Assembly (NCBI RefSeq): GCF_964204865.1
Contig: NC_135252.1
Coordinates: 8,887,383 to 8,951,382 of the forward strand
Length of the DNA: 64,000 bases
Origin: Styela clava
Taxonomy: Eukaryota > Chordata > Ascidiacea > Stolidobranchia > Styelidae
Direction: 5' to 3'
Positions 1,387-40,468 of this stretch are shown piece by piece (positions within the stretch are counted from its first letter, which is position 1; each line of letters opens with the position of its first letter). Under the pieces are notes generated by a model. The model saw only the letters and a list, made by a program, of their open reading frames with translations. It had not been told where the DNA came from and made no database searches. A program made the translations under genes and the position numbers.

Positions 1387-3612
1387 ATGGGCCTTTCTAC
1401 TAGAGTGAGAGAGGCTACTCCACAAAACACTTGTTTCACGTCAAGCCAATTAAACAATATTGAAGAAGCAGTCGCTGTATGTGATAGTTTGTTGGCTGAC
1501 GCAGAAACATCCAATGATGAAATTACATTCCCGTCGCCTGATACAAGACTAGTCAATGCAGAACAAAGTTCCTGTTTTCCAACGACTACCTTTCATCCTA
1601 ACGGTCTTTCGATTAGGATACCTTTTCCTGTCGAAGGTGACTTAGCTATGATCGAATGTGCTGGGAATCGTCACAATGAAAAGTTTCCGGCAATGGTTAG
1701 ATCAACTGGAAGCCGAAAAGAAAAGAAGCGCACAGAATGCATAAACAACGCTTTCTCAGAATTGAGAAAACGTATTCCAAACGTTCCTATGGATACGAAG
1801 TTGTCAAAAATAAAAACGCTGCGACTAGCAACGTCGTACATTGCTTACTTGACAGATATTCTTCAAAATGCTGATCCCAGCAATCCTAAAGATGGCAGGG
1901 ATTTTCGTGCGGATCTGAAAGCCCTGAGAACACGAGAAAGAAGACGGCATCTCTGCCAGGTATACCCATCCTATATATACCAATCTATTGAATAAACTAT
2001 ATAAAACTATCTTACGTATTGTCAAAACCCAAAACATGCGGAACTGTAACATGTAAACCCTTGCTTACTTCCTAACAAGGTAAGTTAAGTATCTTATCAC
2101 TCGTACCATAGGAAACAGCCTGAGTGTTGTATGGGACCTTGCATAGGCAAACTACGGCCCGCGGGCAAAATCAGGGCCGTTGGGTAATTTAATCTGTCCG
2201 CCTGATGCTACCACAACCAAACCAAATTTAGATGTTTTAGCTATATAGCTCAGGGATTTTTTTGATATAGTGCTTACATTTAGTTTTGGCACGAGGCATA
2301 TTTTTTCCACTTTTGCTTTTGTAACACTGTAAATAAGATTCTGTTCATAAAATGTAACTTTTTACGTCACACTTACATGACCCGCTTGTTTAGGTGGGCA
2401 CAAAATTTTGGCGCCTGGTCCAAATACCTTGCCCACCTCTGCTATGGACACTACCGAGAAATCTAGCTTGTCCTTTCAGCGCAATTAGCATAAGGTGATA
2501 ATCACTTGGTCACAAGCGTGTTTATTTTATTCCAGACTGATGTTAGCGGAAAACATGCCGTTGTCAACGGGCAGTTAAATTTAACAATGGATGAGGAAAC
2601 GCCAAATAATGCGGAGAAATTGAATTTGCAAGGTGGTAAAAAGAGAAAGGGTAGAACGGGATGGCCAGAAGCCGTGTGGGCAATGGAACTAGGAAATAAC
2701 GTTACGCAGAGTGTTGATAGTTTTACCTCCAACAGTGAAATAGACACCCACACTTCAACAGAAATTGTTCCTACCCGGAGTATTACACAAAATGTTCCAT
2801 TTTCACGCCTAGTTGAGGACACCGACTACAGTGAAGAAACATTTCAAAATATACCGCAAAGATTCTACGTATTTAACGGCGCTCAAAATTACGCCCCTGT
2901 TCAATCGTACACTTCAGATATCTCGAACGTAGGAACCGCTCAGACCATACATTCGATTGGCGTTGTTACTGGTAATGGATACGGTCAAAAAGATGATTAT
3001 GTGTCTCCGTTTTCATATCCGGCAATAACATTACCAGCTGCTTCATCGTTTTCAAGACGTTTGCCTCCAATACCACGGCTGCGGCACGAAGAAGAACGCG
3101 GGGTTGAAATTCAGAAAATATCAGAAGGGCTTACTAGTACTGATTTTGATGTCATCAGAAGCGAGTTTACAGATCTAGAAAAAGGGGACCATTGCTCTCA
3201 TTCGACTCCCAGATTCGCAGAACTGAAGACCGTTTCTGTTGCAAGTATAAAAATATCAACTTCAGCTATTAGTGGTGAGCTATGTTTATACATATGTGCT
3301 CCCCTAAATCTTCAGACTTGTTCCAATTAACCGAGTCATTTTCAGGTGTATTTACATCTAATCCAAGTTTTCAGTTCTCTATTCACTCGCATTAACGTTA
3401 GTGCAATCCAAAATCAGACTAATATTATTCAAATTTGTAACTTCAATTTCAGTCTAGTTTCGTGAAACATGCATGATATCAATTTTTATGTTGCTGTCAT
3501 AAAAATTCATAATATTTCAGGATACGGCACGTTCACCAGTACTGATTGTGCCGATTCCAACCTGCAATGCATGGAAGCAACACCAGTTTTTGGATGCCTA
3601 TCTTCTGAATGA
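1387..3612 (+). CDS. hand: Hand-family bHLH transcription factor
   Basis: Three exons, 1387-1959, 2536-3274 and 3521-3612 (stop TGA 3610-3612), give 467 residues; the intron phases are 0 and 1. An in-frame TGA at 1339-1341 precedes the first ATG, so this start is preferred. The bHLH domain is at about residues 105-160, with the basic stretch [14 protein letters not shown] and the second helix [18 protein letters not shown], essentially the HAND1/HAND2 pattern. Exon 2 carries the second HAND hallmark, [14 protein letters not shown], ending at residue 243. Hand proteins are nuclear E-box factors that dimerise with E proteins and act in heart and mesoderm development. Ascidians have two family members, Hand and Hand-r (NoTrlc), and I cannot tell which this is. 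About 224 residues follow the conserved C-terminal motif, whereas vertebrate HANDs end near it. Family assignment is near certain; the exact 3' exon is likely. Confidence 0.93.
2139..2447. mobile_element. non-autonomous hAT-like element, copy 2, in Hand intron 1
   Basis: About 310 bp, same orientation and same family as 803-1121. It shares the GGCCCGCGGGC core and an almost identical right half (TTTTACGTCACACTTACATG), and ends GCCCACCTCTG. The flanks TATGGGAC and TATGGACA form an imperfect possible target duplication. It lies in the 576-bp intron between Hand exons 1 and 2. Confidence 0.65.
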
Positions 3613-7975: not shown

Positions 7976-8957
7976 TCATTAAAAGACAATGATAACATGT
8001 ACTATATTTCAGGTAAATTAGTTGAAATAGATTAGAAAAATCTTCAAAGTAATTTTTCTGCAGCTTGTTTAATATAACAACCTAAATGAGTGTGATAAAA
8101 ACTTGTTCGGTACAAATAGTAGAATGGTAAATGTTCGACTCTAAAGAGGTAAAAGTACGGCGACTCAATAACATAAATTAAAAATGTAGTACGATTTAGA
8201 GATAATGTTTTTTCAGTGTAAGATTCTGATTAGTAGTATTTTAATAATTTACATCAAGTGAAAAATATTTAGTTGAAATAACTTGGACAGTCATTATTAA
8301 TATATATAAATAGTACATAGGATTTTTTTACTGCACCATACAGAGTATTATGTGAATGAAGATGAACAGATACATTGAAGTTTGACTAAGACATATTTCA
8401 TATGAAGAAAAATGAGTATTGATTTTTGGATCGTTGAGATTGCAGCAACAAATAAAGATGAAATTTTATAGCCAAATAGAATAACTACTAAAAAAAAAAT
8501 TACGTGTATAAAGATATTAGGTAGGACAATTACACATTCTTACATTACAACATAAATATTAAAACAGGGTATAATGCAATGAAGAGAAATTGATAAGGAT
8601 ACAAAAAATGATCAACAATTTTGCTCATTAATCAGCTTGAAGAGAAGAATTAGAAAAATTACTGCACTTGATGAACAAAAATACATAAAAACTATGCGAA
8701 GTACTGGTTGCAAATCACTTGAATCATAAAACAGAATAGCAATATTTAAACTAGTTTGTTTGTCATGGCTCTAGATTTAAGATACACATATTATTCAAAG
8801 GACAGAGATATTTGCCTTAGTTGTATATACAAATATTTAAATACTGAAAAACTAAGCATACACAAACTCAAGTTATAAATGGACGAAATGCAAAATAGAA
8901 TAAAAAGATATATTAGTCATGTTCAGGGTGGTATGCTGAACTGTAATACGTTTATAC

Positions 8958-9468: not shown

Positions 9469-12400
9469 TTAATGTTTCAGTGGATCGAAGGAATCGAGAG
9501 TAACATGTTCTTCTGACATCATCAGTCCTCTGCTAAACTGATTCTACAAATAAATTCAAAAATTTGAAAATAAAAATGATGTATGCAACTCAAAGAATTT
9601 ATGCTGAATTGCTAACAATCATAGTTATGGAGGCTGAGTTTGCATGTTTTTATTTGTATTGCACTTAAAGCCAGAATTATATTTTCGAACTTTTTGGTGT
9701 TGGAAGTCGAAATTTTAGATTCATAGGAGTTGCTAGTCACAGTTTCCGACTTTTAATGTAAGAATCAAAATTAATTTTTTTGACACAAACTAAAATAGCA
9801 TTGCAATTAACAAACGTTCTCAATAGATAAATGAAAAAAGCTTGCATACACAAAACACTTTTCTTTATCAAAATTTGGTATCATAACAATTCGGAGCTCA
9901 AGTCCTCCAAATTTTTCCTCAATTTGGTCAATCTGGAGTCGGGAGTTGTTATGGAATGACCACAGTTCTGTCAATACTATATTGTTACTAGGACTTGGTA
10001 TTTTGAACACTTGATGATTTCAGAATCGAATATTTTTTTAAATTTACTCTCAAATACTTTGAAGATGTATGTGAGTGTTTGTATTTTTTTTTATTGTAAT
10101 GGGTCCTCCAGACACATTAATTACAGAAAACATAGAATCTATCACTCAGACAATCCACTGAGTATTCACATATGATAAGAAACATACTCTATCAATAACT
10201 CACTAAGAAGAGTCCCTATGTAAGAATTGCATTCTAAAAATATGGCTCTGATAAAAAAAATTGAGAGCTTCACACAACTTTTGGCGGACAAAAAAAAATG
10301 GTGCAGATTCAAAATTTTTGTCTAAACTGATTTGAATAATTCAAAATGCCCAGCCCTGATTGATACTGATATTGTCTTGAGAGAGAAAGAGAAAATAGAC
10401 ATAGCTAGTGGAAGAGAAAGCTAGGATCATCCTTTTTTGTGCATTTAGTATGCAAGATTAACAAGCCTACTAGAGAAAGTAACATGCAAACATGATTTTA
10501 GTTTCAAAAATTTTTATGTAATCGTCAAAATTTTAAAGACTCAGTGATGTGAAAAGATAGTGATGTGCTGGAAAAATATTAGCTAAGATATTGGATGAAA
10601 AAATGAAAGAGAAGACAAGGAAGTCAACTCACATCAAACCCACTAAGTTGATTTCCCGAAGAAGATGTTTTGTAGCGTTTCTTTTTTCCAGAAGGAAAAT
10701 ATTTTTTACTCCATTTCAAAGCCGGGCTTTGATTCTTCCGAGTTTTCTTTCGAATCAAAGGATGAGAAACAATGTGATAATTACTCTTTTTACTTTTAGA
10801 ATATAGCTGTGCTGAGTCGGGTGAAGAAGTTCCCCACATGTTCTGATTAGTGAGAAAGATAGAGAAATAAAGAGGAGAGGAGAAAGCAAATGAATCGAGT
10901 GACTAGAAAAAGGATGAAGATCGAAAGTTTGTTTTTAAGATGGACCTTGCAAAGAGTAGGTAGTAACATGTAGGTATAATAATAAAAACTTTTTTGTCAA
11001 TTCCATGTACATGCTCATATAATATCATTTTAGAATTTTGAGTGAAGTAGTAATATTCTGAGTGAGTGATTATGTAATATTCTCCTCAGTATGTATTGTT
11101 ACTTTTCGGTCGTGATAAATTTTCAATTAAACTCTATTCAAGCAACATTGTAAATGTGATATTTGACATACAGTTGATTACTCAGTTGTGTGAAACTCTT
11201 TTTACACTAATGTTGTTTCTCTATATCAAATAAAAGGCGCTCCACAGGTGTGTCTACCAATATGGAGGTAACTAGTTTGCCTACTTTACATTAAGTTGTA
11301 TAAAGAGACTGAAACCTATGGGCAGAGGGTATATTCACTTGGCTAACACAGACAGTCGCCGAAGTCGTATTAGAACTAGAATAAGGAAAATCGGAATAAA
11401 ATCATAACCTAACCCTAACCTGGTACACACACTACGGGAATACCAAATAAAAAATAGATTAATTCAAACTATGCATTTATTTCATTGTATTATAAAATGA
11501 TTTCATTATACACAGATTTATATAATTTGGAATCGGCGGGCTGTAAGATTGTTTAGGTACAGCAAAAACGTCATGAGCACAAGACATCGAACTATAGAAG
11601 CAGTATCACCCAATTTATTTCTAGAAGTAGAAAAATGCTAGTTTGTTTGTTTAAAATTGTATACTGGATACTATCTTATTTTGGACATTTACAACAGCCT
11701 GCTGGTTTCAAAATACCACAGTCCAGTGTAAAAAAGTAGATTTCCTATTACCAATCTATATACAATGGTTTATTTTACAACTATACCCTTTTGAAAGTAC
11801 ATGATGAGATGTAAAACAATACACATGATGAACAAGCTAAATTTGTTTTTATCTGTCATACTTCTTTACAGTCAACCCCAACTGCCAGAAAAAAGCAAAT
11901 AAAAAAACTACAAGTTTTTACCTGTACATCCATTACTTCTCTGTTTATTTTAGGTTGAACTTGCAGAGGATCAAACATATCATTTGACCATGGATTTGCA
12001 TCTGGAACAAGAAAAGTTAATCATAGATGCAGAAGTGCTTGTGTTTCTTATTAGTAATAAATGAGAATAGAACTGTTGAAAACCAGGATAGAGAAGGATA
12101 TCATATGGCATATGACAAACCACAGCCTCTCGTCTGGTTACTATTATACATGTCGGGTACGAGATTAGTTAGCCAGTTATCTGTTTCAGATGCATGGTCA
12201 TGGACTTAATGGTGGAGGGAGACATAACTAACTATCGGTTACGTGAATCACCCTACAACGATGAGGAGTCAAGCAATACACTTGCATGTAATTATCCCAC
12301 ACAGGAATCGTACCTGCAAACCCATGTAGGTCAATCAGAAGTGCAGTGACAAATGTATACCTATCGCGTAGCACGATGTACCACACCGTCAAGACTGAAG

Positions 12401-15400
12401 AAGTTATAGACTTAACAAATTTTGAATCAAACTATGGGTTGTGAAAAATTTTTGACTCAAGACTTCATCTCCGAACACTGACAAAATCAGATTTTGAGGA
12501 AAAAAACTCATTGCATATGCAAGCCTTTTTTAATAGACCTTTAAGAAACTTAGCATACTTGGTGCTTTTTGAGTTTCTGTAGAAAATTTTGACTTTTCAG
12601 CCATGAAAGTTTGAAATTGCAACGTCCAACTCCAGGCAGTTTGAAAATACGAACTCTATTTATATATCCCAGGTAAACAGTATAGAAAAATAATTTACTC
12701 TGTGGCCTTGTAGGTTTCCTAGATGGAGGCTGAGGAAGTCGTGCAGTATTTGTCATCGGCACAAAAGGTTGCATGTTGAATATGTCCTAGAAAAACAATA
12801 GAAATGGAATATCATCACAGTGATTTTATCAGTGTGATGGAATAATACACATTATATGTTTGATATCCAAAATAAATATTAGAATATGTTTCAAATGACC
12901 CGGGTTCCATTTTTCTGGGGTCACCTTATAATTCATATAAAATTTCATAAAACACCACTTCAAAAATTTGATATTTCAGAGGCAAATTTTCATAATTCGA
13001 ATAATATATATATGATAAAATTGTAATTAATTAAAATCAATTTACATAGCAGTCCCTATTGCACAAATAACAAAACATGCCATAAGGCATAAACCAACAT
13101 AATTAAATTGGGATTGTATTGACTTTATTTAAAATTTGAAATCATAAGTTGTTTTAAATAAATTTTGAATTCAAATCTGCCTCACTCACAATCCCGACAT
13201 CATATTCTATAAATAGCTAATATTTTTGGCTTAATCAAATCAACATGATGGAAAGAGGAAATAGGTATTGCATATCATAGATGTTTATTAAGTTTTTTAT
13301 TGCCGCGAATGAGGCCAAAGAGCATATGTTATGCTGATTATTCATGGGTGCATTACCAATATTTTACTTTCAATACTTTTGATCGCAGAACACCATAGTA
13401 TATTGATACAAAAACTATATGGATGATATATGCAGTGCTATTAATAATAACGGCATCGGATTATGCAAAAACTATCACCATTTATAAATGGATTTCTATA
13501 TATGTATTTGAACAGATAGATTAAAAGTCCAATTTGATTATGGGAAATTTGCATACTAACTGTTTTATTATACATTAATTTCTAATTTCTAAAAGCTGTT
13601 TAAGTTTTTGCGACTTTTCAACCAATGGCATTTCGAAATGAAAGATTTATACTAATTTGAATATCAGAATTATTATAGTCTGACATTTCAATTGATATTG
13701 AAATAAATTATTAGTAGCCTCTATTTTTATTTTTATTTTGACACAATATATACTCATAAAAATCATTATACCTATGTTTGACCTAATAATAATTTTACAT
13801 CCTCACATCATATTCAAGAATTTTAGGATAAGCAGAAAGGCTGCCACAAGGAAATACAGCAGAGAGGGAAAAATAGTAAAGATATGACAGCTAATAAGGA
13901 AATAAGAACCTCTGACGTCAATCTTTGTCGACTATCCAAAGGCAACGACATCTGGTTGTGACTGTGCAGAATGTCTGTCTCTTGGGATGCTCTCATTCGC
14001 CTTCCTATAGGTAGAACTTCACCAGAGTGCATTGCATGAGTTTGAAATGAGGTTGGGCTGAAAGGGTTATGCACTGAGTTCTGCATATTTGCATGTGCAA
14101 TCGGCCAGCCTCCATTATATCCATGATAATGATGGTGATCTTGGTTAATTTTACTGAAATCTCGTCTCTGAATATGCAGAAGAGGGTTCGCAAAACTATC
14201 AAGTGATATTGTGTCCAAATCACCAAATTCTGTTGATGAACTAATAGTGCTCGGAATTCGAGCTCTGGGTTCATGTGAAACCAATCGTGACTGATTTGAA
14301 TGAGAGTTCATGATTGGTGGAAAATCATTAAAATTGGGTTGGTTACTCTTTTTATAAGCTGGAGGCATAACTAATCCCGGTGTTGTTAGTATCTTTTTAA
14401 CATCTTCGCCTTCTCTTGCTGCATCTTTAGCTGCAGCTTCTCTCACAGCCTCCATCAAACGATTTACATTGTCATAGGTACTGTCAACTTGCATTTCCTG
14501 GTGAGCATTTCCAGTCGTTGGCAATGATGTGTTATTCAAAATATTTTGGACATGATCCTTCCCAGAGAGAACCATATATCCTTCTTCTCCGCCTAGCTGG
14601 CGTAAGGTATCATCAAGATTATTATCAGACCAACCGGGCAATCTATTTCGCCAAGGAATTTTCTTTGGTGCCGGTTTCGGAATTGATGTATTGGCAATAG
14701 AAGGACTTTGAAAGGAGGTAGTAGGAACATGTCCTATTTGTAAATTCAATCTACTCTGAGCATGATCTTCTGATCTATGATGAAACGTTTTACTTCCAGA
14801 AATAGCATTCGATACATTAAAGCTACTTGTTGTACTGCTCATGGGCTGTAAAATATAGACATGCTCGGCTGATGACGAGTCTGTTGTCGTCGTGCTCAGG
14901 CTGGAAACGTCATCATTCGAGTTGACAGATTCAGAGTGTTTTAAAATGTTCTTTGATGGTGAAAACGATTGACGATTGGGTTTTGTGGTGTTTTGTATAG
15001 CAGTGCTGACAGATATAGTCGGCATCTTTTTTGGATGATGCAATTCAGATTTATTATTATTAACAGATTCTGGGAGATGCCTTAAAATACTGTTGTAATT
15101 ATGCTGAGATGGGTCATGATGAGTAGCAAGTTTTTCTCCAATTGTTTTTCCCGGTATAGACTGTTCTAAAAGACTCGATGATTTAGTTCTGCCATCCGTT
15201 TTTGTCATCATATTTTGCAATGTTGCAATAACATCATCCAGATTGGCATAAGTACTACTCCTTGGTGAACTACAAGAAGAAGTTGAAGACTCATCAAAAA
15301 ACCTATGGGCCTCCATTTCACCATCAAGAGCCTTTGTTCTTTTCAGCTTTCTTGAGAGTATTTTTGCAGGAATCAGAGACGACAATGTTTTCTTCATTCT

Positions 15401-18400
15401 GTCTTCAGATGCCTTTGTCTTCCTCATATTTCGTTGTAAACTGTTGCGAAATTTCCTTACAGAGTTACTTACAGATGAAGGAGTGGTACCATCAATGGTA
15501 TTTTCCCTGTGTTGTGCATTGGAGGTATCGGATGTCTTAGCTGTACTTCTTGCACCACGGTTTATACTAGTATACGTTGTTTCAGCATGATGGGTACCGG
15601 ACACAGCCGTTGAGCTGTTTCCATGTGCAATAAGATCAACCAAGATGTCATGGTTTTGTTCTTTTGGAAGAGAAGAAAAGAGAGAAGAAACAGAAGTGGT
15701 TTTTGTCTCAGGTTGAAAGATATTGTGCTGTAGGATAAGAGAAAAAAAAAATACTTAGAATGTAAAAGAAGAACAGATAGCAAGTTTGCAAGAGGCATTG
15801 AGAACTGATTAAGATCCAAATATAAACTCCTTCAATTTTCGCTATTACAGTAGATATAACAATGAAAACATTTCAATTTTAGTTTTATTGAATTCAAAAT
15901 ACATGCAATTTTTTCCACAATATTCAAAATCAGATAAAAAATAACATATTGAACTGTCGTGAGTGATTGGCTTTATTATTGTATTGTTATTTTTTCAGTA
16001 TCACTAATTCTCAATTATGCCAGTAAAAATACACAAGATTTCAGAACACCTGAACTGAATAATTAGGAATAACAGACAGATTTCGACAATATTCTGATAC
16101 AACTCTGAAATACTCAATATAGTCGAGCACACTTATTTATTTCCAAGATGTTTTTGGTACTAACAAGCAAAGAATCATCCTAAAGTAACAATTTGCTAAA
16201 GTTTGGGATAAGGCTATCCCTTTTCCCCAGGACAGTACAACCTGTGCAATGGGATATGCATAGTTAATAAGAAGACTGAACAACTCCAATGATCCTTATT
16301 CGGCAATCTGCAGTGCTAAAATAGATATAGAACACAGAAGAAAATACTAAGACCCCATGGCCTAGAAGAAATCATATTGTGAACATATGTATCGTTCCTA
16401 GTTTATACCCTGAGAGAATAATTACATTTCCTTCATGTTCTCTCTATCATATTATGTCAGTAAATATATAAAGTGCATTGTTAGTGCCAATCATTATCCC
16501 CATCTTGTAGTATCATTGTTTAAAAAACTGATTTTTACTTTATCTCGCTGCCTCATATGCATTGCTTTATCAATAGCACAAAAACATTTTCACTCTATTT
16601 TAAGCGATTTTCATATAAAAAGGTTTTAATAATATTACTACAGAAGCTGACTTAAATTGAAATCTTTATCACTAAAGATTTGAAGTAAAGACGGAAGCAG
16701 GAAGTATTTTCACCTTGGCAATTACCAATTACTAAAGTTTCAACTGATTCATTCGCAATTTCCCAGTCAGGTACGTCGATCGATAGTGTCATGCTGAACA
16801 TAAGGGTGTAAGATACATAACATGACCATGTATCTTTGACCAAACACGATGGCAAGGTTTATAAATTGACTTCACAAAATGGAATACTTCACTTACGATT
16901 GCTTCCTGTCGAGGACTGGTTATTGGTGTTGGAACGGGATGACTTCTGCGTGGTACGACAGGATTGGTTGTAGTTTGGGGTATTGACGGAGGAGAACGAG
17001 GCTTAGTTTCGATCTAGATTGAAAAATCGAAAATTAAACTCCAACAAACAAACTGTTTCCATGGCGCATACCAAGTACATATATCTACATTTAATAAATT
17101 GCTACTCTTAATGTTGCCCTTGAATGCAATATTTCAAGAAACTATTTTTGATTTAGAGAAAATGTTGAGGTAGAAATCGCATCCAAAACATTTCGAAGCA
17201 TTAGCTTTTATGCCGCTTTATTTACAGGATGTTCATAAAGTCCTATATCAATTACAATTGTATAATAATATAATATATTTTCAATATATCCTAACCGAGT
17301 TTGTTTTATTTTAGGTATATCTAAATTTATAAAAATATTCTGAAAATCCTATAATCTCCAATAAAGCAGTTATGACAATTACTCCCATAACCACAAGCGA
17401 CACATAACTAAATGATTTAAATTATAGATTCGAAGTTTCATAGAGTTATTACCAGAACAGGATCATTTCCATTTGCATTTGCTCGTTGCACTGCTTCTAA
17501 TTCTGCGATCCTTTTACGTAATTCATCATTTTCTGATTCAAGGTCTTGAATTCGTTTACTCATTTCTGTAATCTGTAATAAGTTCAAACAAAAAAATTAA
17601 TCGAAATATCAATTTCTATATATAGTATTATACTTTACAGAAAAATAGTAGTTATCATGAAAAACATTACTATAATCTATTATTATTTAATCTATCTTTT
17701 TATATATATTGCTCATTTTGAGATGACAAAAAGTATGATTTACTAAATTAAGTTGCTAGTCTACTGTCATGCTGTTGCAACCAAAAACAATACCAAATTG
17801 AACTTTAAAATGATCTATTTATTTTATGAGCATCTTCAGTTGCAAATTGGAATCTGCATTGTACAGCTTCAAACATACCAGTAGTTATATTTCTGCTAAT
17901 GCAACACTGGATTATAAAACTGATGGATGAAAAGCATTTGTAATAATTGACACATAAAAACAAAAGCGCTGGTCACCAAATATGGAAATGAATATAACTT
18001 GTATTGCATAATTAATTACCTTTTTTGTTCCTGGTGTAGATGGATTATCTTTTACAAATTTTTCATATGCCAGCTCAAAGGCTTGTCCAATGGTGAGGGT
18101 GATGTCATTGGCCTAAGAAATTTGAATCACACTCATTATAAGTATAACATTATTAGATGTCGTTCTTGACTTCAAAATTAGTGAAAATATTCCGAGACAA
18201 GCAAAATGCTGATCAAAAGCATTTAGTTGGTCCAACTACTGGAATGCATGGTACGCAGATAGAGAATTGGTTGTATTTTTTCCAATATTCAGTGATGTAG
18301 TGATCCAATCATGTAGGTGAACCATTTGATTGCTATTATTGGCGCTCCAGAAGTATGCGTACCAATATGGAGATAACTAATTTTGTTCGCCTACTTTACA

Positions 18401-21400
18401 TCAAGTTGTGTAAAGGGACGAAAGGGGGTATATTCACTTGGCTAACACAAACAGTCCCCGAACTCGTAATAAAACTAAAATAAGGAAAATCGGAATAAAA
18501 TTATGGCTTAACTCTAACAACCTGATACACATACTACAGCCCCGGGAGTACCATATTATTTGCTCATCTAAATTAGCAAATGAGGCAATTTTTGAAGTAC
18601 TAGATATGTTATTATAAACATATTTAGAAATAGAAATTTCATTTAAAACTATCCAATATTGGTTGCTGTTAATTTTGAGACGGACAAATGGGACCTATGA
18701 AACTACAAATCATTTTATTACCTGATGTAAGGAATCCAAACCGTAACAGTAATGCTTATTGTCATCAAGTTTTGCAATGAAAGCAAACAAACGTTTATCC
18801 TCTTTATCATCAGCACAAAATGAAACACGTTGTAAATTAATTCTATGAAGTATATCCTGCAAATAATTAAAGCTAACATTACTTTGATAATGTCATAAAA
18901 ATAAGTCAAAGATTAAAGAATATAGCTGAAACAGATTCAATGCTAGGTGGTATTGAAACAAGTGGAAGCATTCTAGAACATCACACAATTATCTATGTTG
19001 AAAGTTGATATACAGGGTGTGCATAAAATTCTGTTATAATCAAAATTTTGTCATTAGGTCAGTTATCAATATATGTTAATGTTAACCAGGTTGGTTTTAT
19101 TCTAACCAGTGTTTATTTGTCTTTTTACTTTAATTAACACAACATTATAAGCTTGCCATTACTTGCACGGAGCAAGTCAATGTTTTTTAACCTAATTCAA
19201 TACAAGACTTTATTTACACCCTTATATTATGAAGACTTAACTATACAATTAAAAATTAAACTAATTGAAGAAACTGAAATATTTTAGTTAATAATGATGA
19301 GACATCATCATAATTAGGTATATTCGTATCAATACAGGTTTTAATTAAATAACCATGGGCATTTCACTTTTATTTAACGAACTTTTTTGCTTTCAATGGA
19401 TAACTTGTATAATTGCCGATTCGATAACAAAAAGATTAAAAAGAGCCTATATGCTGATACCCATATATGTATACACCTTTGGAAGACGATTCTCTTATCT
19501 GTAGTGGAAAACATTTTTCTAAATCCTCTATGTGACTAATTTCAAATATTTCACAAATTATTCAAATGTGAATAAAAATTTCGATATTTAAAAATTTTCA
19601 TATTGAATTTTAACTAGTCTAAGTAATCCGGAGTGATTCAATATTTAGCTATTTAAATTTCCAGTACAGACCAATATAAAGATAAGAGGCTGCGATACGC
19701 TGTTAGGTTTACAACTTCCCTCTCCCATAATATAATATTGGGAAATGCAAAATATATCCTAACATGCTTCAAAATGACCTATCCCAGGATGTCTTAATAT
19801 CATCTAAATATTATTCTCAAGAACTATTTTTGTGCACAAGATATGTATTGTTTTGATCTTGTGCAACAAATTCTGGTTTGATGAAGTATATCTTCTGGTT
19901 ACCTGGTACCACTTATTTGAATGTGCATTTTCTTAATTCAAACTGGTAGCACAATGATTCAATTATTACATTAAATCATAGTCATTGCACAGCATAATTG
20001 TGTGATACCAGGCTGTTGAAAATGGCTAACACTATATACTCTCTTACAAAAAAAGATCGAAACACTTTTTGTTTTCTATATTCAAGCTGAAAACTACCCA
20101 TTCCTAAATATACTATATTTACAGAATTCAACTTCTGTAAACAAAAGTGAGTATGCAGAATTGCCGTCTCCGATTGCTCAAAAACCTTTTATCTAACAAA
20201 GATACAAAAACAAACGTAATTCTATACTTGCTCTTACTCTCTGGAACCAAATAATTCGCATTTGATACCCTTGAATTTGCTATGTAGGTCTCTTTTAGAA
20301 TACACATATATAATACAACCATTCCGAAAGGTATCAAATATCGGATAAACTGTTTTGATGTAGACCGATGTCGTCATCGTATCCAGGAAACGACCTCGTT
20401 AGCACATAATCGTCGCCTTGAAAATTCAGTACTTCATCATATTACCTTATACGCATCTGTTGTGTTATTGATCGTGAACTATGCAATAGTGGGTACAGGG
20501 AGTTCACGTAACCACATGTTTCTCAAGTATTATGGACATATATAAGGCGTTGCATTAAAACCAATGCAAGGAATTGAATTGAAATTGTACACATTTGGTA
20601 GGGATAAGAACACAGCGATAACTTTTTAATTAATGACTGCGCATATCTATCACATACACCGATCTGAGAAGCAGAATTAAACCGAGCATATTTAAAGATA
20701 TTTATGATTTTAGTTTACTATTTTTACGAAGTAGTCGCCATGTATGACGACCAAGAATGGCACCGGCTGGTGATGATGGTGGTCATTCGCCCAAGTATAC
20801 AAAAAAATATAATTTTCTGAAAATTAACTGTGCAAAAAGGTTGTCGTCAATTCCACACAAAAGTCCGCTTAATTATTAGCGTATCGTTATACATTCGAAT
20901 ACAGACGTTTACGAAAACATATTGTGGTAAAGAGGTAACTGTTATCGAGTATCGAGTATCGAGAACGATTCTTTCAAATTAGGGTTTCTGAGATGATCTC
21001 CCTGTTCTCCTTGAAAAATAAAACGTTTCCGCTAAAACGCTAAGCCCATAGAGATATAGTTCGAAAAATCGGAGTTCATTCAAAATTGAAAACTGACGAA
21101 AAATCTCAAAAATGATAAATTACCTCCCTCACTAAAAGTGGCAGTAATGTCTGTAATCAGTATTCTTGCCTAAATCGACAATCGACATTCGAAATTTCGC
21201 CTTCCCGTCAAAGACATTTTCTGTTATATTTGAAATCCTCGTTATTATTTTGTGAATCGCTTTGTCCAGCGACTAAAAATACATTTGTTTCAACCGTTCG
21301 TATGCCGGCGTGAGACGGAAAGAAAATAATTTCTGACGTTGAAGGGCATCTGAGTTACGAAAATAGACGCTTGGTGATCACATCAAATAAAACTGCATGC

Positions 21401-24400: not shown

Positions 24401-25815
24401 CATAATCAGTTTCTATTTATTTTTGCTTTGATTAATCATCGTATCGCGTGTTATGATGATTCTGGAGTCAAAATAAACTTGTACTTTTATTCCAAAACCA
24501 TATACATAAATGGTAAAAAAGCCATAACTGTTCATCAACTACTGAAAAGGCAATTTATCTTCTCAACATGATCAATAATTATAATGAGATACAAACCTGC
24601 AACCCCCAGAGAGATTACTTAATGATGACATGAAACTCAGTATATTCTGAAGTTCAGCAGATCAGAGTTATGTATTGGGTACAGATTAAAATTTCTGTAG
24701 TAGTATTTAATACCGTACTTACTTTGCTTTTAATATCTGAAATGGTCACAAAATTAATATTGATTCCAAGTTCAACTTTGGGTGGTTTCGTTCCCTCAGT
24801 TCGCTTGATCTGTCTTGTAAAGCTTAATTTTTTGAGAGCTGCTTTTACCATCGGCATTCCACGAGGTTCTGGCACTTCAGCCTTACCCATAAACTGCAAT
24901 AAAAATAAGCAGCGTATATGAATGGATAGCACTTTAATTGATTACTGTCACTACTTTCACATAAATTGTCAATTTATCACATATGCTTAGTAAAAAAATC
25001 TTCCAGTCTTCCAAGGCTTTGAATACTATAAAATGTACATATTTACAAGTATAAGACTGAACAATACCGGAGTAAGAAATTGTCGATTTGGGCAAAAATA
25101 AGTAAATAACAATCAAATATTAGTAACTCATTTTATATATTCATCAGTGATATACTAGATACTATACTGAAATCATACACCTATTTTCATCTAGAATAAA
25201 GAAAGAATACAACTCCAATAGTTGGCACATTGGACCTATGAAGCATAAACTCACTTTGACAGTGTATGTCACTCTTCCATTAATTAAACTTTCCGACGGA
25301 TGAATCCATTGTTTTGAACCATTACCCTGAAAAATCATTAGTCATGTAAATAAATAGATTAGAGCTCTCAGCATTCCTGTTACTGAAATCAGAAAATAGC
25401 ATGAGATAATTCTATGTCACTTTGGTATGCAATCTAACTTGCTTAACGGTATCTCAATCTCATACCGCAGTGGAACCAATTCAGTTCCTGACCCAAACCA
25501 TAACTAAAATCACTGTAGCACCGATTTTTCTTTCCAGCTATCAGTAATGTCACATCAACTTTACTTGCTGATTATGATAAAACTTATTACATGTCTGCAC
25601 GCTTGAGGTTATAGACATAGGCTACCCCTCGAAATAGTGTTACAAATTTGCACACTGGAAAAATGAGCATCATAGATCTGTAGTAAACAGTTTAAAAGGC
25701 GTCAGGGCCTACAGATACCGGTACAAGTTTAGGCAACGTATTCAATCAACTGATTGCAGCAAACAAAAAATGAAGAATTCCAAAATTAAAATCGTCTTCA
25801 ACTTACCAAAACCAT
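9469..25815 (-). CDS. gulp1: GULP/CED-6 engulfment adaptor (PTB domain)
   Basis: The core isoform, in transcription order, has exons 25815-25807, 25326-25255, 24893-24723, 18856-18722, 18112-18020, 17572-17453, 17013-16897, 12786-12699, 12001-11922 and 9543-9469 (stop 9471-9469). Together they are 960 nt, 319 residues; human GULP1 has 304. The PTB domain is at about residues 22-155 (KFMGKAEVPEPRG, SFCADDKEDKR, ITLTIGQAFELAYEKF). A short coiled coil follows at about 161-190, then a proline-rich stretch, the motif DIFNMQPF (about 240) and a conserved C terminus, VMDVQ|NQFSRGL, matching the GULP1 end. The protein is a cytoplasmic adaptor that binds NPxY tails of engulfment receptors (MEGF10/Draper, LRP1) in apoptotic-cell clearance. 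The 9-base first coding exon (ATGGTTTTG) is the least certain part. Two further phase-0 exons, 15727-13823 and 10842-10633, lie in the introns and are listed separately. Confidence 0.93.
10633..10842 (-). CDS. gulp1: GULP basic cassette exon (70 residues)
   Basis: This lies between the exons ending at 11922 and starting at 9543. It is bounded by an acceptor (CTAATCAG) and a strong donor (GTGAGT). It is exactly 210 nt, opens in all 70 codons, and is phase 0 at both ends, so it can be included or skipped without changing frame. It encodes NMWGTSSPDSAQ at its start, then a lysine/arginine-rich stretch with IRKKTRKN and SGKKKRYK, resembling a bipartite nuclear localisation signal. Human GULP1 has nothing similar that I know of. 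Skipping it restores an excellent match to the vertebrate C terminus, which suggests a regulated cassette. Confidence 0.7.
11236..11444. mobile_element. GGCGCTCC-ended MITE, copy 1
   Basis: About 209 bp with ends GGCGCTCC and GGGAATACC, flanked on both sides by AAATAAAA (an 8-bp duplication). It contains a CTAACCCTAACC stretch and shares long blocks with copies at 18341-18552 and 38182-38398. It lies in a GULP intron and is non-coding. Confidence 0.7.
13726..13737 (-). terminator. poly(A) signals after the large GULP exon
   Basis: On the minus strand two AATAAA hexamers abut at 13737-13732 and 13731-13726, about 86 bases after the stop codon of the 1.9-kb GULP exon. This supports the exon being used as an alternative 3'-terminal exon rather than only as an internal cassette. 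Confidence 0.5.
13823..15727 (-). CDS. gulp1: giant alternative exon of GULP (634 residues)
   Basis: A long pyrimidine tract and CTACAG acceptor precede 15727. The frame is phase 0 from the upstream coiled-coil/proline exon (ends 16897) and stays open for 634 codons to the stop at 13825-13823. It encodes a serine/threonine-rich, probably disordered region. Short motifs include TYANL and TYDNV (YxN, Grb2-SH2-like), VYILQ (YxxQ), HNPFSP (NPF, EH-domain-like) and a KIPWRNRLPGW segment. It ends with a hydrophobic run, SLLAVISLLFFPLCC. Used as a terminal exon it gives a protein of about 873 residues. If the weak donor GTTCTT after 13910 is used instead, it becomes a 1818-nt in-frame cassette without the tail. 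That this is an exon of this gene is inferred from phase and splice signals. Confidence 0.8.
   Translation of the reverse strand, partial: HNIFQPETKTTSVSSLFSSLPKEQNHDILVDLIAHGNSSTAVSGTHHAETTYTSINRGARSTAKTSDTSNAQHRENTIDGTTPSSVSNSVRKFRNSLQRNMRKTKASEDRMKKTLSSLIPAKILSRKLKRTKALDGEMEAHRFFDESSTSSCSSPRSSTYANLDDVIATLQNMMTKTDGRTKSSSLLEQSIPGKTIGEKLATHHDPSQHNYNSILRHLPESVNNNKSELHHPKKMPTISVSTAIQNTTKPNRQSFSPSKNILKHSESVNSNDDVSSLSTTTTDSSSAEHVYILQPMSSTTSSFNVSNAISGSKTFHHRSEDHAQSRLNLQIGHVPTTSFQSPSIANTSIPKPAPKKIPWRNRLPGWSDNNLDDTLRQLGGEEGYMVLSGKDHVQNILNNTSLPTTGNAHQEMQVDSTYDNVNRLMEAVREAAAKDAAREGEDVKKILTTPGLVMPPAYKKSNQPNFNDFPPIMNSHSNQSRLVSHEPRARIPSTISSSTEFGDLDTISLDSFANPLLHIQRRDFSKINQDHHHYHGYNGGWPIAHANMQNSVHNPFSPTSFQTHAMHSGEVLPIGRRMRASQETDILHSHNQMSLPLDSRQRLTSEVLISLLAVISLLFFPLCCISLWQPFCLS
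18341..18552. mobile_element. GGCGCTCC-ended MITE, copy 2
   Basis: About 212 bp, ends GGCGCTCC and GGGAGTACC, same family as 11236-11444. Flanks CTATTATT and ATATTATT agree at seven of eight bases. It lies in a GULP intron, between the exons at 18722 and 18112. Confidence 0.65.
18857..24722. other. 5.9-kb GULP intron
   Basis: This is the largest intron of the gene and splits the PTB domain. No exon with convincing coding content was found. A perfect palindromic CRE-like TGACGTCA lies near 22290, in a stretch that could serve as an internal promoter or enhancer, but nothing more supports that. The ORFs at 21960-22250 (+) and 23178-23719 (-) resemble no protein I recognise. Confidence 0.5.
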
Positions 25816-33013: not shown

Positions 33014-36000
33014 ATGGATCAAACCACTTCTTCATCGGTCATTTCCGAGACAACTCTTGCATCGCTTCCGCAGACGGCGAATCTGGAGCCTGGAGATATT
33101 GCTGTTATTGTTGTCTACTTCATTTTTATTATTGCCGTTGGAATTTGGGTGAGTTGAAAGAAATGATGCTTTATTAAAATAAATAATAATATTACACACA
33201 ATGCATGGTACTAATTGTTTTGAATTTTGAAACTGAAGAATATAAATTCTCTATAAAACAACGGGTACTTACGTTTGTCTACTTTCCTCTTGATTCACTG
33301 CATTTGAAAGTCGTGGTTATTACAATTGAATGCATACTTTGCATAACAATACCAGTTCACCCTTGTGCAGCAGAAAACCAATATCGTTTTAAATAAATGC
33401 AAAGTCTTTTATATATAAAAAAAAGTTCAATTCACTCTTATTTATCAGGCAATGTGCAGGACCAATCGTGGAAATGTCAATGGTTTCTTCCTTGCTGGGA
33501 GAAACATGAATTGGTTTCCTGTTGGAGCATCGTTGTTCAGCAGTAACATCGGTAGTGGTCATTTTGTCGGACTAGCTGGCACAGGAGCAGCGGCGGGAAT
33601 AGCCGTTGGTGCTTTCGAGTGGAACGTGAGATAGTAGAAGTTCTTTATACTTTCCTGTGTTCTGCAATATTTTTTTCTCTGGTTCTTCTCGGTCCGTGTC
33701 GGCCATTCTTTCATTATTCATCATTCTTTCTAACTTCTACATACTATTTCAGGCGATGATCACCTTAACTTTGCTGGGTTGGATATTTGCTCCGATCTAT
33801 ATTGCAGCAGGTGTGGTGACAATGCCGGAATATCTGAGAGAGAGGTTCGGGGGACAAAGAATTCGAATGTATCTTTCGGTTCTTTCGCTCTTGTTGTACA
33901 TTTTTACTAAAATATCGGTAAGTCTTCTTAGTACAGTTAACAAATCCCGAATAAGAAATTATTTTTCTTCATTGCTTGCTCGGGAATTAGAATTTCATGG
34001 TGAGAATTGTGAAATTAGAAGGATCAACAATGAAATATAACTGATTTTACGATCTCTTTCCAACAGTACGACACAGCATATAAATATTGAAATGTTTACG
34101 GTTCGCTGGCTAAATCCATTGGATGGAATTTTTGCGAGAATCATTCATGCGCTAAAAAAATGTTGCTTGGCAACTTTAACTGTTCGATGTTTATAAAACA
34201 AAAGTGTTAGGGTAAAGTGTTAGTGCTTAATAGCTTAATTAATTAACATGTCTACAATAAACTAAAATAACAAAAAAAGCGATCAGATCTCGTTTTGTGT
34301 TTTTCATCGGAAATTTAACTGATATAAAATAGTTTTTGTCTAGTATACATATTGACATCGAAGATGGACTCAATGTTTGTACCTTGTTGTTTTTAACATT
34401 CTGAAACCAAACACTTTACCCAATCAGGCGTAAATAACAAACTTATTGTTCAGACGGTAAACCTGGTTACGACTTCACATACGAGCCTATTCCGTTAACT
34501 CTAGAACCGTCAACACGTCATGAAAATGTATGAGCTCTGATAATCCATTGCGCCAGCGACATAAATTTGTATTTTCCAGTGACAACGTTTGCAATACTTT
34601 TATTGATCTCGTTTGTCCAAAGTTTCCAATTTTATTGAACAGAAATGCAACATATTGTCGAAAAATAATACTGAACACAGAATCGAAAGTGGGAGTGTTT
34701 TCTGATGATTGTTCCTGAAAAAACACATTCAAGCAATTAAAAACCAAATAAGAAATTGCTATATAAACTGGAATGCTATTGTTAAGGGTTGTAAATAAAG
34801 TGATCGAAGTAATTGGATAGACATCGAAATATGTGTACACGGCACGTCTGGCGAAACTGCGCATTTTAGAAAAATAAAATGAACTGTGTCGGCGATCGTC
34901 TCGAAAAGTTTATGTTTGTCAAAAGCTTCGATAAAAATTTTATTGCTGTTAATTTCATCACAGAAATATTCTCCCAAATCATTGAATGTATTGTGAGCCA
35001 TATATAAGAATCTTTCAAATCTAACATAGTGTAAAAATATAAAAACTGTCACATTACATATATATACTGTTGTTTACTAGAATTCTGTTTGCAGGCTGAT
35101 CTTTTTGCCGGAGCAGTCTTTATTCGAGAAGCTTTGCACTGGAATCTGTATTTTGCAATGGTACTTCTACTTGCAATAACGGCATTATATACAGTTACTG
35201 GTGGTTTGGCAGCTGTTATATACACTGATACAGCACAGACATTTATAATGCTGATTGGAGCATTCGTGATGATGATTATGGGTAATGATATTTATTGTCA
35301 ATTTATATTCAGATGTTTGTGAAATATTCAAACATTTTCGTATTTACATGAAACATTAAAAAGTTCCACCAAAGTAAGCGACTGTTCGAAAATGATAATT
35401 TTTGAAGAAGTTACTTTGAGAACATATTGGAAGAAAGAATTGGGAATTGCTAAAGGTTATTGGTCAGAATTTCCAAATTTTACTAAACCTATCGACAATT
35501 TTGCTAAATTGTCGTACATATTCGGCGGTGGCGATCACCTAGCTATTGCTGAATCAAAAAATCAATATATATACCGTAGATATATATACTGTATACATTA
35601 CCCTCTTGTTTATTTTCAAACTTATAACATAAAGCTATTATACGACTTTGTACGCATATAAAAAGTATCATAGTTTCACCCAGTTACAAAACAGTTCAAA
35701 AAAGTTGTAATCATTTTTTATAGCTTTTGCAAGAGTTGAAGGATATGATGCGTTAGTTACAAAATATATGAACGCTACTCCATCAATATTGATTGCGAAC
35801 ACCACGTGTGGGCACCCAAGATCTGACTCTTTCAGCGTGTTTCGGGACGCAGCAACTGGTGATTTACCTTGGCCTGGACTGACGTTTGGTCTCACAATTC
35901 TTGCCACCTGGTACTGGTGCACAGATCAGGTACCTGGTTTTCTGGAGCTAAATAATGATAACTATCTAACTGATTGATTGTGTAACACTTGTATACATGT

Positions 36001-39000
36001 ACCTAAATAAATGAATCAAAGTTATTTGTAGATGGTCTGACCGAATCTGTATCAAATCGATATTTGTCAGATCGTACAATAAAATTAATGATTGAATAAA
36101 TCACATCATTTTCTAACAATTTTAAAAAAATTACTGTAAACTCACATACTAGATTCTGATAGTTTGTGGGCAGGGTTTGCGTTATGTCGCGTCTACGATG
36201 TCAAATAAATCTTCACCACGAAGTGGACTATTAATTCTCAAATAGCGGGTTTGCTATTCCCATACACGACCTGTACTGGTAACCCGAAAAAACTATGATC
36301 TAGTAAAAGATTAAGCCGCCTATTCGTCCTTCCTCTGTATATATGTGAAAAATCTAAATGCTGTCAACGACATTGCTTTTCATAAATCCCTGAAAATTTC
36401 TGTTTATTACCTCAGGTTATCGTACAACGAACCCTTGCTGCGAAAAACTTGTCACATGCAAAGGGAGGTTGTGTAATGGCCGGATTGTTGAAAATATTAC
36501 CAATGTATATGATGGTTATGGTTGGAATGATTAGTCGAGTAGAATTTAAAGGTAACCTAAAAACGTTTTTATACACCAAGCTATGCACAAAGTTTCGGAA
36601 AATAGATACGTGAAAATGTCTTTAAATTGATAATCTCATATATATAATATACATTTATATATATTTATTGTTTGTCTGCAAAGTATGGGAAGTGAGACAA
36701 ATTAACACACAATTTATATATACAATATTACTATAAGATTTATGAAACTAACTTGGAAATAAAACCTCAAAATGCATTATCTTTGTTTACTATCCTCTGT
36801 TCAATCACTTTTCAGATGAAGTAGCTTGCGTTGATCCAGATGAATGTATGAAACATTGTGGAACGAAAGTTGGTTGCAGTAATGTAGCTTATCCGAAACT
36901 TGTCATCAAAATACTGCCTGTGGGTCTTCGAGGTAAAAATGAAGTTGTTTTCATTTGTTTTTATCCCAGTTTCGAATCAAAATCAAACTGAAAATGGGAG
37001 AATGCCTAGGTTAAATTTATTACTATATTTCCAGAAGAAAAGAATTTGATTTATTTAGTCGTTTGTATACGTTTGTTTATATATCACCTGCAACATTGAC
37101 TATGATATAAATTCTGAAAAAGCTGAACTTGCGTCACTTTTGTTTGTGAAAGTTTAACCTACGACTGCTGCTGCCATCTAATACTAAATTCATGCGGTAT
37201 TTCCTGAAAGCAAATTCGCAATAGAGCATGTAGATATTGTTCCACGTTTTTTTTATATTTCATAGGTCTCATGCTTGCGGTCATGATGGCTGCTCTCATG
37301 TCCTCACTGACGTCCGTCTTCAACAGTGCATCAACTCTCTTTACATGCGACATATGGACAAAAATCAGAAAGAAAGCTTCTCAAAGAGAACTAATGATTG
37401 TTGGAAGGTATTGCAACCCATTCTGTCAACGAAACTGTTTTTTTTTCATCAGTATTTCCTGTCGTGATTATTAGAGCACTTCATCGTATGTATCTTTTTG
37501 TGATAAAGTAACAAGAGAGCTCAAATATGGACACGAATGCTAAAATAAAGTAGCATCAAATCTTTTACTGTACCGGTATAGTCTCACCACGACCACTGAA
37601 ATTCAGTCCCAGAACCACGGCACGGTGCGCATTTTTTAGTTTTGTTGACGTCATCGCACTTGAAAAAACGAATCCCATATAGGCATAGAGCCTGCAGGAA
37701 GTTTTGAAATAAATAAAAGTAATAGCCTTCTAGCGAAAAATGCAGTCTGCAACCACTGACAATTTCACAGCAATTGGTTCAGTAGTTAATGAGAAAAGCG
37801 ATTTTTTCATAACGATAAGCAGAAAAATACTAACAACAACAAGAACAACATATAAAAAAAATGATCCATATGTACATTTCGTGTCCAATAATCTTATGCG
37901 TTATCTAATCTGCTTTAGGGTATTCATATTGGTCATGGTTGGAATCAGCATAGCTTGGGTACCGATTGTTCAAGTAGCGGCTGGAGGACAATTGTTCGAT
38001 TACATCCAATCTATAACCAGTTATTTGGGACCACCGATTGCTGTCATTTTTGTGTTGGCAATATTTTGGCCACGATTAAATGAACCGGTGAGTGGATATC
38101 TGTCATGTTATTGCTGTTGACATTAGACTACTGTATTTTCGAAGTATTGTATAGGCTTTCGCCAACTCTTTGAAGAGTTAAGGCGCTCCCGTAGTATGTG
38201 CACCAAGTTGGCGGACACCTGAACATAGTATGGGTACCAGGTTAGGGTTGGGACATAATTTTAGTCCAATTTTCTTTAGTTTAGTTCTATTACGAGTTCG
38301 GGGACTATAGCCAAGTGACTCCCGTAGTATTTGTACCTGAAATTATGGCCTAACCCTAACTTCGTCCGCCATCTTGGTCCACATACTACGGGAGTACCGT
38401 GAAAACATATTCCATAATTCATGTGTTTAAAAGACTTTCGTTATATGATCTATGTTGTTGAATTACAGGCGATGAATATACCACGATGTGGACTGTATAT
38501 TGACTGTATAAATTGCGTGTTCACAATGACTACTTTATTTTCCATCAGTATTAATTTCGCAATAAAGTTGTTACTATTTTATATCACTTATCAAACTTGG
38601 ATACTGAAATTTTACTGGCATCATGCAATTGTCCCAACGTGATTGCAATGTTTTGTTTCCCCCTGAACGTATCATAACAAACATGAACTTACTTTGAAGT
38701 TCACAATCTCTTTGTTTAGACTAGGTTATAATGTGTTTGTTCTCTATTTCTCTTCAGACACTACTTGATTTAATATTGAATTCATTTCATTTCAGGGTGC
38801 TTTTTGGGCTCTCATGATAGGTCTCGTAATTGGACTCATCAGAATGATTCTCGATTTTGCCTATGGAGCGCCATTGTGCGGAGAAGAAGAATTCAGGCCA
38901 TCAGTGATATATAAAGTAATGCTATAATTACTTTAAATTATTAATTGTAGTATATATATTGTCATTTTAGTACTATGCACGAAATGCAAAACAGCCTGAA

Positions 39001-40468
39001 TTCAGTATAAAAAATTATTCAACCAATATAACGTTCACGATACTGCTTTTTTCACAAGTCAGTCATCTTCATCCGATGACAAACATTTTCTCATACCTTA
39101 ATACAACAAAACAGCAATGCAAAAAAAAATATGGACACGAAATCCAAAACAAAGCAGTTCCAAAATTTACCCAGTACCGGTGCTCGGACCACCAGATAAC
39201 TGAGATGTGATCACAGAACCACGCAACAGTGCGCATTGTTAACTTGATGTCATCATCATTTCGTATACAATACCTATTATATTGAATTAATCGTTGTTTG
39301 GTGGACTTTCATTGCTTATTTCATTTCTGTGGTTTCATGTGTTGTTTGAATGTTCTTTCCAACTAGACACTGTAAATTACTGATGAATTTTCAGAGAGTT
39401 ATGCCTATGTATTAGTGATTCCGTATGTACCGACTGCAAGAATACTGTAGCAAGAATCAAAATGTAAATCAAAGATATTGAATGGCTCAAATATCTTGCA
39501 TTTCATATTCACAAATTTTATTCTGTTTCATCCGAGCAAACTCAGTTATCGAATCACTCAATATATATAATAAAAAAATAGCTGTCAATTCATCATTTCA
39601 GATTCACTATTTACATTTCGCTCTGATATTGGCCGGGTGTACTCTCATTATAGCAGTTATTGTGAGTCTTCTCACTCCTCCTATTCCCAAGGAACATGTG
39701 AGTATTATTGGTGCTTATACTACTTTACTCTATATATACTATTCCGAAATTAATCTTTAATTGTCAAATTACTTTCAGCTTTACAGACTCACATGGTACA
39801 CAAGACACAGTAAAACAAAGAGAATACCGATATATAAAAGTGAAGGAAAAGCTCTATCAAATGTAAATTTGTTTTTCTGTATTTTGAGTTTACAATCATG
39901 GGATACGGGAGCGAGGCTTTATTGTAGTTCGAAACTTTAGTATTGTAGTATATTATATTCATATATATAGCGTTATTTTATAATATTCTTTTTGACCCAA
40001 TATATGCATTAGATTGAAATGGGAGTTACAAATCCTGCTATGGAAAATGACGACGGCGAGACTGTTGGCGAACTACCGGGAGTAGGAAAGACGGAAACGT
40101 CCACCAGTCCACCACAAGGTATACATGCATACGCTTTTATCCTTTTCTATATCTCATTTACTCTACTACCTACTTTTATACATATTACTCATGTGTATTG
40201 TAAATATAATTTGGACTCTCTGACTATATAATTTTATATGTTTCACACTCCTAATTATATTATACATTGCTTGACAGACGAAGACAAATCTTGTGTAAGG
40301 AAGGGATTCGATATATTTTGTGGCCTCGACGACACCCAACCTAAAAATGAAATTCCAATCATGCAGATTACAGATATCACAGAAAAGAAATGGGCAGCTA
40401 TTGCAGTCAATGTGTCGTGTGTCATTATGTTAATTGTCATGATATTCCTTTTTGTATGGTATCGTTAA
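33014..40468 (+). CDS. slc5a: SGLT-type sodium/solute cotransporter (SLC5A)
   Basis: Fourteen exons: 33014-33148, 33449-33625, 33753-33917, 35095-35281, 35724-35929, 36416-36551, 36816-36932, 37266-37407, 37919-38087, 38796-38915, 39602-39697, 39779-39862, 40013-40118 and 40278-40468. They give 676 residues; human SGLT1 has 664. It is a plasma-membrane LeuT-fold symporter that couples sodium entry to sugar or related solute uptake. The family motifs are strong: [54 protein letters not shown] and CGL near the C terminus. SGLT1 sugar-site residues are kept: N78, H83, E102, Y285/W286, K316 and Q452 (SGLT1 N78, H83, E102, Y290/W291, K321, Q457). The position of SGLT1 T287 is alanine (A282). The glutamine at 452 argues for transport rather than the SGLT3-type glucose sensor. 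The start is the first ATG of an N-terminal exon ending in the first membrane helix. Which SLC5A subtype it is cannot be settled. Confidence 0.95.
34487..35052 (-). CDS. candidate nested gene or relic in SLC5A intron 3
   Basis: On the strand opposite the transporter, two overlapping frames look coding-like. The upstream one (35052 to about 34850) contains [14 protein letters not shown] and [18 protein letters not shown]. The downstream one, after a good acceptor (GTGTTTTTTCAG), runs from about 34720 to TAG at 34489-34487 and ends [16 protein letters not shown] phase-0 donor-like GTGCCG after SPD in the first frame could join them. The helical character recalls armadillo/HEAT-like repeats, but I do not recognise the protein. 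No first exon was found. It may be a real nested gene, a decayed insertion, or chance. Confidence 0.3.
37511..37852 (+). repeat. dispersed repeat family R, copy 1
   Basis: A roughly 310-340 bp block with a GTACCGGTA core, a CGGTGCGCATT segment, TGACGTCATC, a region with TTTGAAATAAATAAAAGTAAT, and an AACAACAACAAG tail. Partial or full copies lie at 39108-39262, 53617-53936 and, inverted, 55037-55353. The copies share no clear terminal inverted repeats. It lies in SLC5A intron 8. Confidence 0.6.
38182..38398. mobile_element. GGCGCTCC-ended MITE, copy 3
   Basis: About 217 bp with ends GGCGCTCCCGTAGTATGTG and CATACTACGGGAGTACC, the least decayed terminal inverted repeats of the family, plus an internal second CCCGTAGTATTTG. 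It lies in SLC5A intron 9. No target duplication is obvious. Confidence 0.65.
39108..39262 (+). repeat. dispersed repeat family R, partial copy 2
   Basis: This matches the first half of the family R repeat (ATATGGACACGAAATCC, ACCCAGTACCGGTGC, GTGATCACAGAACCACG, TGATGTCATCATC). The AACAACAAC end is missing. It lies in SLC5A intron 10. Confidence 0.55.

Follow-up and report, generated by a model that had tools for sequence, protein, structure and literature searches.

Does a gene for a short, soluble adaptor protein also encode a much longer form of it that is held in the membrane? This question is raised by a stretch of 64,000 nucleotides (nt) from the ascidian Styela clava (contig NC_135252.1, positions 8,887,383 to 8,951,382), referred to here as the window, whose minus strand carries a gene for the PTB-domain adaptor GULP/CED-6. 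GULP/CED-6 is usually treated as a soluble adaptor that couples the tails of receptors to the machinery of endocytosis. A long open frame, exon 8 in our numbering, lies between two of the exons that make up the ordinary protein. Of the explanations considered, we lean slightly towards one in which exon 8 is an alternative last exon of this gene and encodes a membrane-anchored, effector-lacking form, which would act as a brake on engulfment or as a diverter of it.

Exon 8 (positions 15727 to 13823) is 1905 nt long and consists of 634 codons followed by TAA. Both the coordinates and the 634 open codons given in the first-pass annotation of this DNA were borne out by direct translation. In simulated controls, 60 sequences of 64 kb produced by a third-order Markov model trained on the rest of the window, the longest open run was 198 codons and the mean of the maxima was 147.5. 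The period-3 ratio of exon 8 was found to be 15.2, whereas 44 overlapping stretches of joined introns from the same gene averaged 0.80 and did not exceed 1.49. A codon score was also trained on 893 codons taken from the other GULP exons, a bHLH frame and its neighbouring frame, and the symporter exons of the window. By this measure exon 8 scores 0.199 per codon in its own frame; the two remaining frames score -0.103 and -0.324. All nine blocks of 70 codons (0.042 to 0.415) were observed to score above the ten open intron windows available, a small and overlapping set with a maximum of -0.079. Furthermore, an acceptor-like site (at least 13 pyrimidines in 17) that leads into at least 100 open codons occurs at two places in all when the two strands of the window are taken together. 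One is the acceptor of exon 8 and the other, at 14167, lies inside exon 8 in the same frame and is followed by 114 codons. Exon 8 is very probably a coding exon, as the first-pass annotation had held, and this is supported by frame length, period 3 and codon score.

No Pfam family was found to match the exon 8 product at E up to 1, and no solved structure matches it below E 0.2, the value of the best match. This lack of a known domain or of a significant solved relative is what would be expected if the frame were due to chance, to a decayed gene or to a piece of a transposon, but its length, period 3 and codon score make such an origin hardly credible. A transposon origin was rejected after a search of the 376.6-Mb assembly, in which exon 8 has one match at E up to 10, counts in this search being lower bounds. 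A pattern search with exon 8 gave 23 matches in genome_contigs and 2 in viral_contigs, none of which was confirmed; this null result is uninformative because neither collection holds animals.

The gene model consists of minus-strand exons 1 to 12 with 11 scored acceptors, where the start in exon 1 was assigned by reading. Ten of these same-strand exons, with exon 8 and a candidate exon 11 omitted, join into a protein of 319 residues (the short form), and exons 1 to 8 join in frame into one of 873 residues (the long form). A PTB domain is present in the product (Pfam PF00640, E 1.4e-21). The structure of GULP1 (6ITU) was found at the top of 18 solved-structure matches, with E 5.3e-43 over residues 7-158; the matches to ANKS1B (1.7e-15), the LDL receptor adaptor (4.5e-13), Numb and Disabled are much weaker. 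In addition, several coiled-coil profiles match inside residues 143-199, every one of them under its curated cut-off. Judged by its domain and its best solved match, the gene is GULP/CED-6. The first-pass annotation had named it as GULP, had noted that a complete protein of 319 residues remains when exon 8 is skipped and had expected a product of about 873 residues when it is used, and all of this agrees with the joined frames.

Exon 7 lies on the same strand as exon 8 and ends in phase 0, which matches the frame of exon 8; the phase-0 junction proposed earlier is thus found in the sequence (exon of 117 nt, donor ATC/GTAAGT, where the slash marks the exon border). The first in-frame methionine of exon 8 is codon 101 and five out-of-frame ATGs come before it. 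In windows of 30 codons, codons 21-110 were observed to score 0.15 to 0.45 and codons 1-30 to score -0.02. Since codons 21-110 already look coding and the first methionine comes only at codon 101, an upstream exon probably supplies the start. Within the intron at 16896-15728, no open stretch that begins with ATG has a phase-0 donor whose score exceeds 0 in the crude donor matrix used here. Four long minus-strand frames in introns further upstream score as non-coding. We infer that exon 7 is the simplest donor partner for exon 8 and that the two are joined. The same observations bear on the possibility that exon 8 belongs to an independent gene inside the GULP intron, one that would encode a tail-anchored protein from its own promoter, with a trans-spliced leader or from an unseen upstream exon. 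That the frame has its own stop with AATAAA nearby, and no Pfam family match, would suit such a gene. However, the shared strand and phase with exon 7, the lack of a suitable ATG-started stretch in the adjoining intron, the late methionine behind five out-of-frame ATGs and the non-coding frames further upstream all stand against it, and we regard a nested gene as rather unlikely.

The splice sites of exon 8 bear on how it would be used. The strong polypyrimidine tract reported in front of it was observed in the acceptor TTTTTTCTCTTATCCTACAG, where 15 of the 17 positions from -20 to -4 are pyrimidines, the top value among the 11 acceptors of the gene model. The same annotation described exon 8 as symmetric, which does not hold: a stop codon lies inside 13823-15727, and because the exon contains its own stop it is not a symmetric cassette and could not be one as drawn. 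With its own acceptor and stop, exon 8 fits the role of an alternative last exon best. Two AATAAA hexamers stand 86 and 92 nt past the stop.

The encoded tail contains 93 serines, 53 threonines and 46 asparagines among its 634 residues. Disorder-promoting residues form 74-81% of seven successive blocks of 80 residues but 57% of the final block of 74 residues. The first-pass description of a long serine-rich tail is therefore correct for composition (serine and threonine), but it overlooks a hydrophobic C-terminus that changes the likely meaning of the tail. Exon 8 closes with VLISLLAVISLLFFPLCCI (residues 607-625), which is followed by nine further residues. The mean Kyte-Doolittle value over these 19 residues is 2.84 and the summed insertion scale is -2.6, whereas the runner-up among the other 19-residue stretches of exon 8 has 0.56 and +12. 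T-rich intron DNA often reads as a hydrophobic peptide, and for this reason introns were chosen as the control. Among 3224 open, overlapping windows of 21 codons in the full introns of the gene, polypyrimidine tracts included, none was observed to reach the 2.71 found in exon 8 (maximum 2.40). These hydrophobicity values suggest that the end of exon 8 is likely to be a tail anchor.

Short motifs in exon 8 were also counted. Five of its nine tyrosines stand in a YxxPhi context (shuffle fraction 0.03) and at least two in YxN (0.13), the motifs including YANL, YMVL and YDNV. This enrichment is weak, several motifs were examined, and it carries no weight in the argument. One NPF motif was found, and clathrin boxes, DPF and NPxY are absent from the exon 8 product.

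The long form ends in exon 8 without exons 9-12, and with these it is without all three DxF motifs (DIF, DMF and DSF) of the usual C-terminus. Those three lie within 80 residues, compared with one such motif in the 634 residues of exon 8. DxF sites bind the AP2 appendage. Binding of clathrin and AP2 has been reported for worm CED-6, fly Ced-6 and mammalian GULP (PMC11228867, citing other work). According to PMC6781437, a mouse Gulp1 from which the C-terminal region is missing binds EphB2, and 56% of transfected cells show it accumulated at EphB2/ephrinB1 clusters; in Eph/ephrin trogocytosis it is dominant negative. This dominant-negative behaviour makes a membrane-held isoform lacking the effector region the best reading of the long form.

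In the explanation we favour, splicing of exon 7 to exon 9 would give the ordinary soluble adaptor of 319 residues, and splicing of exon 7 to exon 8, together with cleavage and polyadenylation near 13700, would give the protein of 873 residues. The latter would retain the PTB domain together with the likely coiled coil but would lose exons 9-12, the presumed effector region of GULP-type proteins. It would gain about 600 probably disordered residues rich in serine and threonine, closing with a C-terminal membrane anchor. We infer that this form is inserted into the membrane, where it could bind receptor tails through its PTB domain and pair with ordinary GULP. Being unable to recruit the C-terminal partners, it may serve as a natural brake on engulfment or as a diverter of it. 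If this is true, it would show how an engulfment pathway could be damped by the choice of a last exon. The broader proposal, that one GULP gene provides both a soluble adaptor and a tail-anchored one with a phosphorylatable tail of 600 residues and so a switch or brake built into the membrane, is made more tentatively, and we place it somewhat below even chances.

Several observations weigh against this explanation. Codons 601-630 have a codon score of -0.15, which fits a membrane stretch but also a polypyrimidine tract, and such a tract closes here with a CAG at 13841. Among 35138 open windows taken from the whole stretch outside exon 8, with its coding parts counted, 11 overlapping ones were observed to be as hydrophobic as the end of exon 8; they fall at three places (8533-8536 and 63376-63394 on the minus strand and 40394-40397 on the plus strand). 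A proline is also present within residues 607-625. The AATAAA hexamers are weak evidence because such hexamers occur at 2.2 per kb on the same strand. Binding of AP2 through DxF is assigned to this protein by analogy. Furthermore, PMC6781437 reports that ephrinB1 endocytosis triggered by soluble ephrinB1-Fc was unaffected by the truncated Gulp1. A general brake on endocytosis is therefore not supported, and a brake or diverter of engulfment is proposed instead.

The remaining points of this kind concern donor sites. No phase-0 donor scoring above 2 was found inside exon 8 in the matrix scan, but some donors of the gene model itself fall below that level in the same matrix, those of exons 6, 7 and 9 scoring 0.5, 1.0 and -2.0. 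Four phase-0 donors inside exon 8 reach at least -2.0, the score of the weakest gene-model donor; they include 14446 (1.2), 15472 (TCT/GTAAGT, 0.6) and 15460 (0.3). Exon 8 might thus be composite, where the donor at 15472 (or 15460 or 14446) would splice a cassette of 85, 89 or 427 codons to exon 9. GULP would then receive an insert and still keep its usual C-terminus, and reading through to the stop would be a second option. All three GTAAG/GTGAG sites within exon 8 are in phase 0, TCT/GTAAGT scores much like the donors of exons 6 and 7, and windows across codons 21-80 have a strong coding score. However, the coding signal persists through most of the 549 codons past 15472, so that at least one transcript would be expected to be translated as far as the stop. 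Read in frame, GTA-AGT, GTA-AGG and GTG-AGA are also simply common codon pairs for Val-Ser and Val-Arg. We consider a composite exon unlikely.

A further donor, GAT/GTGAGG at 13806, has a score of 3.7 and lies 17 nt past the last base of the stop. Its use would splice exon 8 to exon 9 from behind the stop and would turn it into a poison exon, through which GULP mRNA is targeted for decay. An exon with that role would not need a frame of 634 codons that has coding statistics and closes like a membrane segment, and this possibility is very unlikely. The polypyrimidine tract ending in CAG at 13841 and this same donor flank 34 nt across the stop codon. The bracket resembles a small out-of-phase exon, perhaps by chance.

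The features of the gene are collected in Table 1. The exon 11 candidate is open in phase 0 and, if included, would give a form of 389 residues. Its codons score close to zero, use of an acceptor at 10902 would leave the frame unchanged, and the filter that selected it was also passed by two unrelated places in the window; for these reasons the candidate is possibly due to chance. A 96-nt repeat was also noticed in two GULP introns, with copies at 11324-11419 and 18423-18518 that are 88% identical.

Table 1. Exons and other features of the GULP/CED-6 gene, in window positions (slash, exon border)
Feature	Positions	Strand	Basis
Exon 1, start codon (MVL)	25807..25815	-	ATG then TTG/GTAAGT; donor score 4.1
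Exon 2, PTB start	25255..25326	-	phase 0; aligned to 6ITU
Exon 3, PTB	24723..24893	-	joined frame; 6ITU alignment
Exon 4, PTB	18722..18856	-	joined frame; 6ITU alignment
Exon 5, PTB end	18020..18112	-	joined frame; 6ITU alignment
Exon 6, likely coiled coil/leucine zipper	17453..17572	-	weak coiled-coil profile matches below cut-off
Exon 7, proline-rich linker, last shared exon of the two forms	16897..17013	-	117 nt, phase 0, ATC/GTAAGT
Exon 8, best read as alternative last exon: 634 codons + TAA	13823..15727	-	open frame, period 3, codon score
Possible symmetric cassette of 85 codons within exon 8	15473..15727	-	donor TCT/GTAAGT at 15472, phase 0
Candidate tail anchor, exon 8 residues 607-625, hydrophobic	13853..13909	-	Kyte-Doolittle mean, insertion scale, window controls
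Two AATAAA hexamers after exon 8 stop (at 13737 and 13731)	13726..13737	-	weak basis
Exon 9, usual C-terminus, DIF motif	12699..12786	-	joined frame; motif scan
Exon 10, usual C-terminus, DMF motif	11922..12001	-	joined frame; motif scan
Exon 11 candidate, optional, 70 codons, symmetric, Lys/Arg-rich	10633..10842	-	acceptor 13/17 pyrimidines, donor 4.0
Exon 12, last exon of short form, DSF motif + stop	9469..9543	-	joined frame; motif scan

Other genes are present on the plus strand of the window. A bHLH protein is encoded at 1342-1995 (PF00010, E 1.9e-16), in a frame which we take to be Hand-like, and a second long open frame follows at 2494-3330, for which no Pfam match was found at E up to 0.1. 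Two open frames in 33630-38120 match the sodium:solute symporter family (PF00474) and are probably exons of one gene. No Rfam match was found in the window.

The candidate long form can be compared with several known systems. It shares the PTB domain with other PTB adaptors (Numb, Disabled, ARH and ANKS1B). Several other PTB adaptors carry long disordered tails with endocytic motifs, and we know of no membrane stretch in these four; exon 8 itself differs from the group in matching no known family in Pfam or among solved structures. Tail-anchored proteins carry a single hydrophobic segment, about 19-21 residues long, that lies no more than 30 residues from the C-terminus, and the exon 8 product resembles them in its single hydrophobic stretch near the C-terminus. 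To our knowledge, no tail-anchored protein has a PTB domain.

The likeness to GULP1/CED-6 lies in the PTB domain matched to 6ITU and in the likely coiled coil behind it, and the C-terminus of the short form presumably resembles that of GULP1. The difference is that the candidate long form would replace the whole of this C-terminus by 634 residues with a hydrophobic end. We know of no such long GULP isoform. No report of such a GULP/CED-6 form was found among the literature matches listed for isoforms, splice variants, tail-anchored PTB adaptors and Ciona or ascidians, a set of sources from which subscription papers mostly fall outside.

Mouse Gulp1 without its C-terminal region consists of the PTB domain and the zip region, much like the part that the long form has in common with the short one (PMC6781437). 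It is engineered, and the same paper describes it as cytoplasmic or nuclear when away from clusters. The candidate long form would differ from this truncation by an additional linker exon, a large tail and a candidate anchor. If the favoured explanation is true, the long form would be a gene-encoded counterpart of the laboratory dominant-negative truncation, fixed in the membrane.

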